NCBI RefSeq assembly: GCF_030758935.1
Contig: NZ_CP132333.1
Span: forward strand, 372,001 to 436,000
Reading direction: 5' to 3'
Source: Geothrix sp. PMB-07
GTDB taxonomy: Bacteria; Acidobacteriota; Holophagae; Holophagales; Holophagaceae
Length of the DNA: 64,000 nt
Shown here: positions 6,695 to 60,450 of the stretch, in pieces
How positions within the stretch are numbered: position 1 is the stretch's first letter
Layout of the letters: each line of letters opens with the position of its first letter
Made by a program: the position numbers and the translations under genes
Notes under the pieces: model-generated
The model's database searches: none
Seen by the model: the letters and a program-made list of their open reading frames with translations, nothing else
Told to the model about the DNA's origin: nothing

Positions 6695-6814
6695 ATGCGC
6701 TTTCCGTCGAACAGCTTCGCCATCGCCTCGCAGATCCCTGCGGTGGACGGCCTGCGCTCCTTCGGTATTACCTCCGGTACCACCACGACCAATACGGTCG
6801 CGCGGGGCACCTGA
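6695..6814 (+). CDS. Threonine operon leader peptide (thrL-like)
   Basis: A 39-codon reading frame sits between the transporter and thrA. Its end reads [16 protein letters not shown], with four consecutive Thr codons (ACC ACC ACG ACC, 6779-6790) and further Thr codons at 6770, 6794 and 6809, plus one Ile codon just before. This is the layout of a ribosome-stalling leader peptide for a threonine biosynthetic operon. In-frame ATGs at 6683 and 6686 are alternative starts; none has a good ribosome site. The stop codon at 6812-6814 lies 22 bases before the attenuator hairpin. Thr codon density and the pairing logic of the following hairpins are direct observations; the regulatory role is inferred. 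Confidence 0.8.
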
Positions 6815-6866
6815 CCTGATCAGCACACTCAGACTCAGCCCCGCGCCTCACACCGCGGGGCTTTTT
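6801..6866 (+). terminator. thr attenuator: terminator with competing antiterminator
   Basis: AGCCCCGCG (6837-6845) and CGCGGGGCT (6854-6862) form a perfect nine-pair stem with an eight-base loop, followed by a T run at 6862-6866: an intrinsic terminator before thrA. The octamer CGCGGGGC also occurs inside the leader peptide at 6801-6808, so the terminator's left arm (6838-6845) can pair with it instead. A ribosome stalled on the Thr codons at 6779-6790 leaves the octamer free to form the antiterminator. A ribosome reaching the stop at 6812 covers it and lets the terminator form. Confidence 0.85.
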
Positions 6867-6899: not shown

Positions 6900-9395
6900 A
6901 TGCCTTCATCTTCCAGTCGGCCCCTCCCATCCATCCGCGTCATGAAATTCGGCGGCACCAGCCTCGCCGATGCGAATCGTTTCCGCAACGTGGCCGATCT
7001 GGTGGCCCAGGCCTGCGGCGATCACCGCATCTGCGTGGTGGCCTCGGCCATGGCGGGCGTCACCAACCTGCTGCTGCACGGTGGCCACGTGCCGAACCGC
7101 GAGGAAGCCGATCGGCTGCTGCTGGCCTTTCATGATCGCCATGCCCAGGTGGTGGCGGATCTGGCTGAGGCTCTGGGCGCGGAGATCGATGCGGTACGGG
7201 CCGAGCTGGAAACGCTGGAAACCGTGGGCCGCCGCCTGCTCCACGGCATGGCGCTGCTGGAGGAGGGCCCGCCCTCGGTGTTGGCCCAGGTCTCCAGCCT
7301 TGGCGAGCGGGCCTCCTGTGCCATTCTCACGGGCCTGTTGAAGGCCCGCGGACTGCAGCCACGGTTCCTGGACCCCACAGAGCATGTGCGCGTGGAGGGG
7401 GATCCCCTGCAGGCGCGGCCCCGCATGGCGGACATCGAGGCGCGCTTCGCCGAGGTGAAGGCCGGGCCGGAGAATCTCTGGGTGCTGCCGGGCTTCTTCG
7501 GCGGCGACGGCCAGGGCCGCATCCTCTCCCTGGGCCGCGGCGGGTCCGACCATAGCGCCGCCCTGGCCGCGGCGGCCCTGGGTGCCGACCTGCTGGAGAT
7601 CTGGACGGATGTGGCGGGCCTCTACAGCGCCGACCCCTCCCTGGTCCCCGACGCCTTCCCGCTGCCCGAAGCCAGTTTCGAGGAAGCCATGGAGCTTTCC
7701 TACTTCGGCGCCAAGGTGCTTCACCCGAAGACCATTCCGCCGGTGCGCGAGCGGGGCATTCCCGTGCGGGTGTGCAGCAGCTTCGATCCCCAGCACCCCG
7801 GCACGGTGATCCGCGAGGCGGTGCCGCCGCCGCCCAGCGGCGTGCGCGGCCTCTCCTTTCTGCGCGACCTCTCGGTGGTGAACCTCACGGGCCCGGGCAT
7901 GCCCGGTGTGCCGGGCATCGCGGGCCGCGTGTTCGGCGCCCTGGCCCGCAAGGGCATCTCCGTGGTGCTCATCACCCAGAGCTCGTCGGAGCTCTCCATC
8001 TGCTTTGCCGTGCGGCGGGCGGATGGCCCAGCCGCGGTGGAGGCCATTCAGGAAGCCTTCCCCGCGGAGTTGTCCGCAGGCTTCATCGATCCCGTGGACC
8101 TGCGCCCAGGTTTGGCTGTGCTTAGCATTGTGGGCGACGGCATGCGCACCCGGCCCGGCATCGCGGGCACCTTCTTCGATGCCCTTTCGGAAGTGGGCTG
8201 CAACGTGGTGGCCATCGCCCAGGGCGCCAGCGAGCGCATCATTTCCGCCGTGGTGGACGAGGCCGACGGCGCCCGCGCCATGGCCCACATCCACCGCCGT
8301 TTCTTCCAGGCCAGGGTGCTGCTGGACGTCCACCTGTTGGGCGCAGGCAACGTGGGCGGCAGCCTACTGGGGCAGATCCAGCGCCAACACGCCAACCTGC
8401 TGGCCCAGGGGTTGGATCTGCGCGTGGCCACCGTGGCCACCAGCCGCCGCATGCACATCGACACCCACGGCATCGACCTCGAACATTGGCGCGAAGCCCT
8501 GGCCCAGGGCGGGCCGACCGATTTGGACCACCTGCTGGACAGGGTCCGCAGTGGCCCGCCGTCCATGTCTGTTCTGGTGGATTGCAGCACCAGCGGGGAT
8601 CTCGCCGCCCGCTATCTCGACATCTTCGACGCGGGTTTCCACGTGGTGGCCGCCAACAAGAAGGCCAACAGCAGCACCCAGGCTTTCCATCATGCGCTGC
8701 GGGAACACGCCACCCGCAAAGGCCTGCGCTTCCTCTACGAAGCCAACGTGGGCGCGGGCCTGCCCATCATCGACACGGTGAAGAACCTGGTCATGACCGG
8801 TGACCGCGTGCTGCGGGCCGAGGGCATTCTATCGGGCTCCATGTCGTACATCCTGGGCCTGCTGGGCGAAGGCGTGGCGCTTTCGGAAGCGGTGAACCGG
8901 GCCAAGGAAAGCGGCTTCACGGAGCCCGATCCCCGCGACGATCTGAGCGGCATGGACGTGGCGCGCAAGCTGCTCATCCTGGCCCGGGAGATGGGCATGG
9001 AACTCGAACTGGAGGACGTGGTGGTGGAGGGTCTGCTGCCGCCGGATTTTGATGCCACCGGCAGCATCGATGCCTTCATGGCCCGGTTGCCCCAGCTGGA
9101 TGCGCCCTTCCAGGCGCGGCTGGCGGCGCTGAAGGCCGAAGGGAAAACCCTGCGCTACGTGGGTTCGCTTTCAGACAGTGGTTGTCGCGTGGGCCTGCTG
9201 CCCGTGGACGCGGAGCATCCCCTGCTGGTCATCAAGGGCGGCGAGAACGCCCTCACCCTGCTCACGGAGCGCTACCAGCCCCATCCCATGGTCATTCGCG
9301 GCTACGGCGCCGGGGCCGAAGTCACCGCCGCGGGGGTGCTGGCGGACATCCTGCGCCTGGTGCCCCCCGGGGCCCGGCCCGCGAGGAGGCTGTGA
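6900..9395 (+). CDS. thrA: Bifunctional aspartokinase / homoserine dehydrogenase
   Basis: The 831-residue product carries, in order, an aspartokinase domain with the KFGGTS motif at residues 16-21, two ACT regulatory segments at about 310-460 ([27 protein letters not shown]), and a homoserine dehydrogenase domain starting at the NAD-binding GAGNVGG near residue 482. It phosphorylates aspartate and reduces aspartate semialdehyde to homoserine, the first and third steps toward threonine. Its length matches the enterobacterial ThrA (about 820). The gene lies directly behind the thr attenuator and overlaps thrB by one base (TGATG), so it is translationally coupled. ACT domains suggest feedback inhibition by threonine, in addition to attenuation. 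Confidence 0.97.
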
Positions 9396-57230: not shown

Positions 57231-57728
57231 GTGCCCCGAATTCTGGCCTGCGGTAGGGTGAAGGAAGCCGGAGGATGCCGCTTGGAACAGATCGAGGAAT
57301 TTCTGCCCTATGCCCAGAGCTGCCTGCGCCATCCCTCGGAGCGGGCGCGGCTGGCGGCCATCCTCAACCTCTGGGCGGCCAAGTGGAAGGGCAAGCACCG
57401 ACTCTTCGACTATTCCCGCAGCCACCATGGTGCCTTCCTCCATTTCAACCAGCTCATGGATGGGAAGTGGGTGCAGGCCTTCACCTTCGTGGCCACGAAG
57501 CGGGAGGGCGTCTGCCTGCGCGGTCCCGAGCCTGACCGCGTGCGCAAAGCCCACAAGTTCCGCCACAACCCCCTCGATTCCGCGCCCTTGGATGCCCTCT
57601 TTGAAGCCTGGTCGGCGCATCCCGAACACCGGCCCTGCGGCCATGCCGTGGAATTCTTCCTGGAAGAAACGCCCGACGACACCTGGGCCGCCTGCCTGCA
57701 GGAAGTGCTGATTCACCTGGGCGCCTGA
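57231..57728 (+). CDS. Hypothetical protein
   Basis: A 165-residue soluble protein with a GTG start behind GGGAGG (57215-57220), ten bases away; a second GTG at 57258 is an alternative. No membrane segment or signal is seen. It has several Cys and His (CLRHPSERARL, SRSHHGAFLHF, HPEHRPCGHAVEF) but no set pattern that I can name. Codon use fits the neighbours. It is divergent from the hybrid kinase gene. I do not recognise its family. Confidence 0.6.
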   Translation: MPRILACGRVKEAGGCRLEQIEEFLPYAQSCLRHPSERARLAAILNLWAAKWKGKHRLFDYSRSHHGAFLHFNQLMDGKWVQAFTFVATKREGVCLRGPEPDRVRKAHKFRHNPLDSAPLDALFEAWSAHPEHRPCGHAVEFFLEETPDDTWAACLQEVLIHLGA

Positions 57729-57808: not shown

Positions 57809-57868
57809 AGCTGTTTTCACAACCCTCTTGCGGAAGCGCTCGGGTTCAGGCATGGTTTCAGGACTGCC

Positions 57869-57937
57869 ATGCTGACCTCCCGCTTCTATTTCGCCTTTAG
57901 CTTTCGCACCTCGGGTGCGAGGGTAGGCGGCGTCTAG
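57869..57937 (+). CDS. Phenylalanine operon leader peptide (pheL-like)
   Basis: A 22-residue frame reading MLTSRFYFAFSFRTSGARVG and GV. Four Phe codons at positions 6, 8, 10 and 12, with a Tyr between, give the run FYFAFSF. AGGA in CAGGACTGCC stands a few bases before the ATG. The frame ends at TAG 57935-57937, 23 bases before an intrinsic terminator that precedes pheA. This is the plan of a ribosome-stalling Phe leader, as in E. coli PheL (which has FFFAFFF). Confidence 0.85.
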   Translation: MLTSRFYFAFSFRTSGARVGGV

Positions 57938-57989
57938 ATCCGGAACCGCTTCGACCATCGCCCCCGAGACCTTACGGCTCGGGGGTTTT
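57905..57989 (+). terminator. phe attenuator: terminator with competing antiterminator
   Basis: CCCCCGAG (57961-57968) and CTCGGGGG (57978-57985) form the terminator stem, followed by TTTT (57986-57989). Inside the leader, CGCACC/GGTGCG (57905-57910 and 57914-57919) forms a pause hairpin. The segment CTCGGGTGCG (57910-57919) can instead pair with CGCCCCCGAG (57959-57968) in nine of ten positions, which blocks the terminator. A ribosome stalled on the Phe codons (57884-57904) would melt the first hairpin and favour the antiterminator. Confidence 0.85.
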
Positions 57990-58006: not shown

Positions 58007-59113
58007 ATGACTCAGACGGATCCGACCCCACTCGCGCAGCTGCGCCAGGGCATCGATGCGGTGGATGACCAGGTGCTGGCCCTGCTCAACCGGCGCGCGG
58101 CCCTGGCCGCCGAAGTGGGGAGGCTGAAGGCGGAGGTGGCGCCCTCGGCGCTGTTCCATGTGCCCAAGCGGGAGCGGGAAATCCTGGCCCGGCTGGAAGC
58201 GGCCAACGCCGGTCCCTTTCCGGATGCCGCCGTGCGCACCATCTTCCAGGAAATCATGAGCGCCTGCCTCAGCCTGGAGAAGCCGCTGCGCGTGGCCTTC
58301 CTGGGGCCCGAAGGCACCTTCACGCACTTGGCGGCCCGGCAGCAGTTCGGCGGCTCCAGTCAGGCGCTGCCCCAGGGCACCATCCAGGCCGTGTTCCAGG
58401 CGGTGGAGCGGGCCCGGGCGGACTACGGCGTGGTGCCCGTGGAAAACGCCACGGAAGGCGCGGTGGATTCCACCCTGGATGCCTTCCTCGACAGCCCCCT
58501 GCGCATCTGCGCGGAGATCCTGCTGCCCGTGGATCAGGCCCTGCTCCTGAGGCCCGAGCTGGATCTGGGCGGCGTTCGGCGCGTGTACTCACATCCCCAG
58601 GCCCTGGGCCAATGCCGCAAGTGGCTGGAAGTCCACCTCCCCGGGGCGGATCGCATCGAGGCGCCCTCCACTTCGGAGGCTGCGCGGCTGGCGCGTGAGG
58701 ATGCCGAGGGTGCCGCCATCGCTTCCGAACTGGCGGCGGAACTCTTCGGCCTGCGCGTGGCCGAGGCGCGCATCCAGGATCTGGCCGCCAACGCCACCCG
58801 CTTCGTGGTGCTGGGCCCTAAGGCCGCCGAGCCCACGGGCCGCGACCGCACCACCTTGGTGGCCATGGCTCAGGATGGCCCGGGCGCGCTGCTGCGGTTG
58901 CTCGAGCCCCTGGCCCGCCGCGGCCTGAACCTGAGCCGCATCCAGAGCCGCCCCACGCGGCGCAAGCTCTGGGAGTATGCCTTCTTCCTGGATGTGGAAG
59001 GCCACGCCGAGGATCCAGCCATGGCCGAGGCCCTGGTCGAACTTCAATCCGCCTGCGCCTCGCTGAAGGTGCTGGGCAGCTACCCGCAAGCAAGCATGGA
59101 AGGTGCGCGATGA
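58007..59113 (+). CDS. pheA: Bifunctional chorismate mutase / prephenate dehydratase
   Basis: The 368-residue product has an N-terminal AroQ-type chorismate mutase (LRQGIDAVDDQVLALLNRRAALA, then KREREILARLE) to about residue 88. A prephenate dehydratase domain follows (FLGPEGTFTHLAA near 98, VPVENATEGAV near 143, the NATRFVVLG end near 262). An ACT domain lies from about 280, with LSRIQSRPTRRKLWEYAFFLD, the site that binds phenylalanine for feedback control. AGGAG stands before the ATG. It lies directly behind the phe attenuator and overlaps the DAHP synthase gene by four bases. Confidence 0.96.
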   Translation: MTQTDPTPLAQLRQGIDAVDDQVLALLNRRAALAAEVGRLKAEVAPSALFHVPKREREILARLEAANAGPFPDAAVRTIFQEIMSACLSLEKPLRVAFLGPEGTFTHLAARQQFGGSSQALPQGTIQAVFQAVERARADYGVVPVENATEGAVDSTLDAFLDSPLRICAEILLPVDQALLLRPELDLGGVRRVYSHPQALGQCRKWLEVHLPGADRIEAPSTSEAARLAREDAEGAAIASELAAELFGLRVAEARIQDLAANATRFVVLGPKAAEPTGRDRTTLVAMAQDGPGALLRLLEPLARRGLNLSRIQSRPTRRKLWEYAFFLDVEGHAEDPAMAEALVELQSACASLKVLGSYPQASMEGAR

Positions 59114-60450
59114 AGGCCATCATGAACACCACGTTGAACACTTGGCAGCCCAACTCCTGGCGGAATCTTCCCGCGGCTCAGCAGCCCGTCTACCGAGACG
59201 CGGCGGCGGTCAACACGGTGTTGGCCGAGCTGGCCGAACTGCCGCCCCTGGTGGTGGCCGAAGAGGTGGATTCCCTGCAACACCTGCTGGCGGAGGCTGC
59301 CGAGGGCAAGCGCTTCCTGCTGCAGGGCGGGGACTGCGCCGAGGCCTTCGCCGATTGTCGCGGCGCCATCATCCAGGACAAGCTGCGCGTGCTGCTGCAG
59401 ATGTCCGTGCTCATCACCCACGGCGGCCGTACCGGTGTCATCCACCTGGGGCGCATCGCAGGCCAGTACGCCAAGCCCCGCAGTGGCACCACGGAGCGCA
59501 TCGATGGCCGCGAGGTGCCGGTCTACCGCGGCGACCTCATCAATGGCCTCGCACCCGATCAACGCGAAGCCGATCCGAATCGTTTATTGGAGGCCTACCA
59601 CCGCGCCGCCGCCACCCTGAACCACCTGCGGGCCCTGGTGGATGGTGGGTTTGCGGACCTTCAGCATCCCGAACACTGGGATCTCAGCTGGAGCCGTGAG
59701 GATGCGGGCCACTACCTCGAAACCCTCGACCAGGTGCAGAACTCCCTGAACTTCGTCCAGCGCCTGGGCGGGCTGCCCGAACACCTGCGCACAGGCGAAC
59801 TCTTCACCAGCCACGAGGCGCTGCACCTCCCCTTCGAGACCGCGCTCACGCGTTTCGTGCCCGAGTACAACCGCCACTACAACCTGGGCGCCCATTTCCT
59901 GTGGGTGGGGGAACGCACCCGTCAGTTGGATGGCGCCCACCTGGAGTACCTCCGCGGCATCGCCAATCCCATCGGCCTGAAGGTGGGTGCCTCCATGACG
60001 CCGGACACCCTGCGCCAGGTGCTGTCCAAGCTGGATCCAGAGCGTCGTCCCGGGCGCCTCACCCTCATCACGCGCTTCGGCGCCGACAAGGCCGAGGCGG
60101 TGTTGCCTGCCCTGATCGAAGCGGCTCGGGCCGAAGGCCATCCCGTGCTCTGGAGCTGCGACCCCATGCACGGCAACGGCCGCACGGCGGCAGGCGGGAT
60201 TAAGACCCGCGCCTTCGGGGACATCCTCCAGGAGCTGCAGGAAGTGGCGGCCCTCCACCGCGCCCATGGTTCCCGCATGGGCGCCGTCCACTTCGAGCTC
60301 ACCGGCGAACCCGTGACCGAATGCACCGGCGGCATGGAGGGGCTGGATGAAGCCAGCCTGCAGCGGGCCTACCGCAGCGGCTGCGACCCCCGCCTCAACC
60401 GCAGCCAGAGTCTGGAGATGGCGTTTCTCATCGCACAGATGATCCGCTGA
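59110..60450 (+). CDS. Type II 3-deoxy-7-phosphoheptulonate (DAHP) synthase
   Basis: The 446-residue product is a class II (plant/mycobacterial-type) DAHP synthase: WRNLPAAQQPVY near residue 17, FLLQGGDCAEAF near 75, GRIAGQYAKPRS near 115, VGERTRQLDGAHLEYLRGI near 273, and the metal/substrate segment CDPMHGNGR near 357. It makes DAHP from phosphoenolpyruvate and erythrose-4-phosphate, the first shikimate step. The start overlaps the pheA stop (ATGA), so both are controlled by the phe attenuator; this ties the entry of the shikimate pathway to phenylalanine supply. Confidence 0.95.
   Translation: MKAIMNTTLNTWQPNSWRNLPAAQQPVYRDAAAVNTVLAELAELPPLVVAEEVDSLQHLLAEAAEGKRFLLQGGDCAEAFADCRGAIIQDKLRVLLQMSVLITHGGRTGVIHLGRIAGQYAKPRSGTTERIDGREVPVYRGDLINGLAPDQREADPNRLLEAYHRAAATLNHLRALVDGGFADLQHPEHWDLSWSREDAGHYLETLDQVQNSLNFVQRLGGLPEHLRTGELFTSHEALHLPFETALTRFVPEYNRHYNLGAHFLWVGERTRQLDGAHLEYLRGIANPIGLKVGASMTPDTLRQVLSKLDPERRPGRLTLITRFGADKAEAVLPALIEAARAEGHPVLWSCDPMHGNGRTAAGGIKTRAFGDILQELQEVAALHRAHGSRMGAVHFELTGEPVTECTGGMEGLDEASLQRAYRSGCDPRLNRSQSLEMAFLIAQMIR

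Follow-up and report, generated by a model that had tools for sequence, protein, structure and literature searches.

We found that the operon of pheA and a class II DAHP synthase in the genome of a Geothrix soil bacterium is very probably controlled by the charging of tRNA-Phe through a ribosome-mediated transcription attenuator. The element lies in the window (the whole stretch of 64,000 nucleotides that was analyzed), which was placed in Geothrix, Holophagaceae, Acidobacteriota by named database loci. A switch of this type, tuned each time to another amino acid, is also predicted before at least five more amino-acid genes in the genome (G000).

The promoter candidates, the leader, its helices, and both genes are on the + strand. 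The leader peptide ORF (MLTSRFYFAFSFRTSGARVGGV; 57869..57937) comprises 22 codons, with Phe at codons 6, 8, 10, and 12 and an F-Y-F-A-F-S-F run. It is followed by pheA (58007..59113), which encodes chorismate mutase type II, prephenate dehydratase, and an ACT domain, and by the class II DAHP synthase gene (59110..60450), which overlaps pheA, as initially annotated; the overlap with the pheA stop is an ATGA. The upstream same-strand gene ends at 57728. A scan of both strands recovered the pheA leader as the sole Phe-rich short ORF with a terminator in the window, and the fold of the 168-nt leader had a z of -4.2. When the intergenic region was dinucleotide-shuffled 5000 times, a Phe-rich ORF (10-40 aa, at least 4 Phe in 7 codons) arose in 19 of the shuffles, a count that refers to the ORF alone, with hairpins not yet required; on this basis, a chance Phe-rich ORF was rejected.

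The pause or protector hairpin 1:2 (57891..57930; -24.8 kcal/mol) has the Phe codons in or just before its 5' arm. The antiterminator 2:3 spans 57911..57967 (57911-57935 with 57942-57967), and the intrinsic terminator 3:4 occupies 57960..57989, with a stem at 57960-57986 (GCCCCCGAGACC/GGCTCGGGGGT) followed by TTTT. Bases 57960-57967 are common to 2:3 and 3:4, so these pairings are mutually exclusive. The terminator segment was estimated at -22.9 kcal/mol, against -28.0 kcal/mol for the full 2:3 helix of 21 pairs. Phe codons 10 and 12 (57896-57904) are directly 5' of the arm at 57905-57910, the placement for a ribosome which, given its footprint, would lie over arm 1 when stalled, and the stop codon (57935) is at the end of segment 2. 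The initial annotation had described the 22-codon leader, the FYFAFSF run, the hairpin, and the terminator with TTTT, all of which lie where it put them; the antiterminator that it proposed exists as well, although the nine of ten pairs assigned to it cover too little of the helix. The U-tract has only four U, and the terminator was absent from the output of a strict terminator scan. The T-tail differs among relatives, reading CTTCGCTTT in L030, L057, and L058. With such a short U-tract, termination may be weak.

To assess conservation, 40 distinct leaders were aligned; three belong to other Holophagaceae genera and the remaining 37 to Geothrix or its very close relatives. Hairpin 1:2 had 90% of cells paired and four pairs changed on both sides, and antiterminator 2:3 had 89% of cells paired and five pairs changed on both sides. 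The covariation score was matched by 6 of 500 shuffled controls for 1:2 and 3 of 500 for 2:3, a signal kept modest by the relatedness of the sequences. Terminator 3:4 was paired in 99% of cells and nearly invariant; as its stem hardly varies, it is uninformative by covariation. Additionally, folding of 39 leaders predicted for every one of them a 2:3 helix, of -21 to -32 kcal/mol, in competition with the terminator.

The reading frame is conserved along with the structure. The ORF, with its start, stop, and Phe codons, is kept in each of the 30 Geothrix pheA loci that were read, counting that of the window, so the leader is a short ORF rich in the cognate amino acid and retained in relatives, as in an attenuator. 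Twenty-eight of these leaders have the FSF motif, and the remaining two read RFFAFRFR and RPFTSAFR. Among the 31 leaders of 22 codons, Phe occupies codon 12 in all 31 and codons 10 and 8 in 30 each. At codon 9, A, F, L, P, and V all occur, and TTT and TTC are swapped at codons 7, 8, and 10. Variation of this kind next to near-invariant Phe codons 10 and 12 is expected if the amino acid that is read matters. The Phe-specific leader-peptide attenuator initially proposed before the pheA-DAHP synthase operon thus recurs in every Geothrix pheA locus inspected, and the loss of leader and stems in close relatives, which would have spoken against it, did not occur.

A promoter candidate of the form TTG-N17-CAAGGT is kept across Geothrix about 12 nt 5' of the leader ATG. 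In the window, the candidate -35 box is TTGCGG (57828..57833), separated by a 17-nt spacer from the candidate -10 box CATGGT (57851..57856); nearly all Geothrix leaders have TTGNNN at the former, and a CAAGGT- or TAAGGT-like hexamer takes the place of the latter. These boxes match the consensus weakly and were absent from the output of the strict scan. From their position we infer a transcription start near 57863 and a 5' UTR of about 6 nt.

In the proposed mechanism, RNA polymerase would start a few bases 5' of the leader ATG. With ample Phe-tRNA, the ribosome would reach the UAG at 57935 and cover segment 2, blocking 2:3, and segment 3 would then pair with segment 4, ending transcription at 57986-57989. 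The terminated short RNA would end just past the CTCGGGGG stem. When Phe-tRNA is short, the ribosome would stall at Phe codon 10 or 12, cover arm 1 (57905-57910), and break 1:2; the freed segment 2 would take segment 3 into the 21-pair antiterminator, allowing read-through into pheA and the DAHP synthase gene. The enzymes of this Phe-synthesis operon are probably made only when Phe-charged tRNA runs low.

A translated ORF could also serve a general sensor of translation or uncoupling (e.g., of Rho or ribosome supply) without specificity for Phe. The weak terminator tail would suit such a sensor, and an almost leaderless mRNA could make the leader sensitive to the general initiation rate. Nevertheless, Phe codons 10 and 12 hardly vary, and the leaders of other pathways are built on different residues that correspond to the respective gene product, which makes this explanation improbable. 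The 5' UTR of this amino-acid operon is structured and conserved, as would equally be expected if a riboswitch or T-box bound Phe or tRNA-Phe directly and the ORF were incidental. The Rfam search of the leader, at gathering and relaxed thresholds, returned no relevant family, T-box and amino-acid riboswitches included, whereas conservation extends to the frame and its Phe codons, and the structure falls within the coding frame. We therefore rejected this candidate, given the lack of an Rfam match and the conserved reading frame, as very improbable.

The same-strand gene that ends upstream and the quality of the stem as a terminator might suggest an ordinary terminator of that gene, with a Phe-rich frame present by chance. 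This is hardly credible, as the leader and the 1:2 and 2:3 helices are conserved in the 40 sequences, the element precedes pheA or the DAHP synthase gene in several gene arrangements, and so few of the shuffles contained even the Phe-rich ORF alone.

To follow the element beyond the window, a covariance model of the leader was searched in 77 genomes of the family. Most Geothrix genomes had one strong match (greater than 120 bits), which was located at pheA in every case checked. Geothrix fermentans DSM 14018 is among the strains that carry the element. Scores of 81-89 bits were obtained in three genomes of the family outside Geothrix; in these, the leader is 5' of a pheA/DAHP synthase pair (L083) or of pheA with no adjacent DAHP synthase gene (L087 and L088). 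In two genomes of genus g8 (L174 and L184), it is a stand-alone class II DAHP synthase gene that follows a Phe leader (TFFYYFGFRT, SFYYFGFRT), and the g8 pheA loci that were read, from other genomes (L084 and L085), have no leader. Across the related genera g4 and g8, pheA was found without any such leader in L084-L086, and the pheA loci read outside the family but within the same class also lacked it. In genera g2 and g9, Phe-rich leaders of different sequence, with terminators, precede fused chorismate mutase-prephenate dehydratase-DAHP synthase genes (L097, L098, and L101). In these three loci, one frame of about 700 aa apparently joins chorismate mutase and prephenate dehydratase to a DAHP synthase of another class, a fusion read from the downstream translation only. 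The Phe element thus follows the pathway through gene rearrangement rather than a fixed position, which fits control by Phe.

Two Geothrix genomes that are 99% complete (G009 and G019) gave no full-length matches to pheA, thrA, asnB, proB, or ilvA at the cut-offs used; they are possibly multiple auxotrophs.

The initial annotation had placed entry into the shikimate pathway as a whole under Phe control. This would hold for the class II DAHP synthase, but G000 encodes a second DAHP synthase of class I-beta (L138; NCBIfam NF006421 and TIGR01361 over cut-off), near which no Phe leader was detected, and so pathway entry is only partly under the Phe attenuator. A KDO-8-P synthase is also encoded in G000 (L139).

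A Thr attenuator had also been annotated in the window, and it was recovered at 6695-6866, before thrA (aspartokinase-homoserine dehydrogenase, 6900-9395). Its leader has 39 residues and its terminator is GCCCCGCG..CGCGGGGC-TTTTT. Most of the 22 genomes have a Thr leader in the same place before thrA, with few Thr codons in some (L146 and L148). The expectation that attenuation would be widespread in the genome was borne out, as G000 carries Thr, Trp, Asn, Pro, and Ile leaders that are conserved in relatives.

All six Geothrix genomes (G000 L124; L119-L123) have a Trp leader before trpE, with WWW or a related Trp cluster (an AWWWR-type run) and a terminator 46-48 nt after the leader stop. An Asn-rich leader (RxNRNxNRxPRA[ND]RAWAG; for example, MTLSLQRFNRNTNRLPRADRAWAGEGLS) with a terminator precedes asnB, the asparagine synthetase gene, in all 22 loci for which upstream sequence was available (G000 L199; L187-L208), and promoter-like boxes of the form TTGACG-N18-TAAGGT lie about 15 nt before the ATG of asnB leaders. 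Before proB (glutamate 5-kinase), a Pro-rich leader (NPRPSHP or NPPPSQP; for example, MIPVATLNPPPSQPTSGAPAGGI) with a terminator was present in 16 of 17 loci (G000 L225; L210-L226). Most of the 19 ilvA (threonine deaminase) loci have an Ile-rich leader (e.g., MNPFRLPIIPIGIAIITSREGA) with a terminator (G000 L236; L227-L245), which is less clear in L233 and L234. Alternative antiterminator folds were predicted in G000 for asnB (-32.7) and proB (-25.5).

A His leader (SRHHASHHVAHR) precedes hisG in the sister genus g6 of the family, where the His-rich leader SRHHASHHVAHRVTGAAF was found in L178, L180, and L185. No leader was found within 1.5 kb of Geothrix hisG and ilvB; hisG is apparently inside an operon there. 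The Phe model matched the Pro, Asn, His, and Ile leaders weakly, owing to the likeness of their terminators and hairpins. The reading of the pheA leader as a Phe attenuator is supported because the leader residue matches the gene product for Thr/thrA, Trp/trpE, Asn/asnB, Pro/proB, and Ile/ilvA. Beyond this genome, we lean towards the view that much of amino-acid synthesis in Holophagaceae is under leader-peptide attenuators with nearly leaderless ORFs, asparagine and proline specificities included.

In Escherichia coli, the pheA attenuator consists of a Phe-rich leader ORF and of protector, antiterminator, and terminator hairpins before a fused chorismate mutase-prephenate dehydratase gene. 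The Geothrix element shares with this enterobacterial system (pheL) the Phe-rich leader ORF, the three hairpins, and the position upstream of such a fused gene. It differs in the sequence of both peptide and RNA, in the predicted near absence of a 5' UTR, and in an operon that also carries a class II DAHP synthase gene. The Rfam family Phe_leader, whose accession we take to be RF01859, gave no match to the Geothrix leader at the gathering threshold or up to E = 10.

Attenuators of this kind are known for trp in Corynebacterium and Streptomyces (PMC1262725) and for his in Bacilli (PMC2965389). They share with the Geothrix Phe element the ORF of cognate codons and the alternative antiterminator and terminator helices, but they serve other amino acids in other phyla. 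In 2010, hardly any attenuator predicted in Acidobacteria had a function associated with it; the authors of that survey knew leader-peptide systems only from Proteobacteria and Actinobacteria and extended them to Firmicutes (PMC2965389). In the open literature searched, we found no paper on asnB or asparagine-synthetase leader peptides, and none on proline or proB leaders, for which the matches were mostly to unrelated words ('probability') and carry little weight. The novelty of the Asn and Pro leaders is accordingly tentative.

Acidobacteriota thus gain a well-conserved, testable Phe attenuator, in a genome that seems to reuse the same logic for at least six amino acids. Its presence across split, overlapped, and fused aromatic genes would be a case of regulation following a pathway through rearrangement, and the leaders for Asn and Pro would extend the range of amino acids to which ribosome-mediated attenuation responds. 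Set against the known systems, the Phe element resembles the classical pheA attenuator in its mode of action and carries the testable features of a leader-peptide system, whereas the Asn and Pro leaders are less expected.
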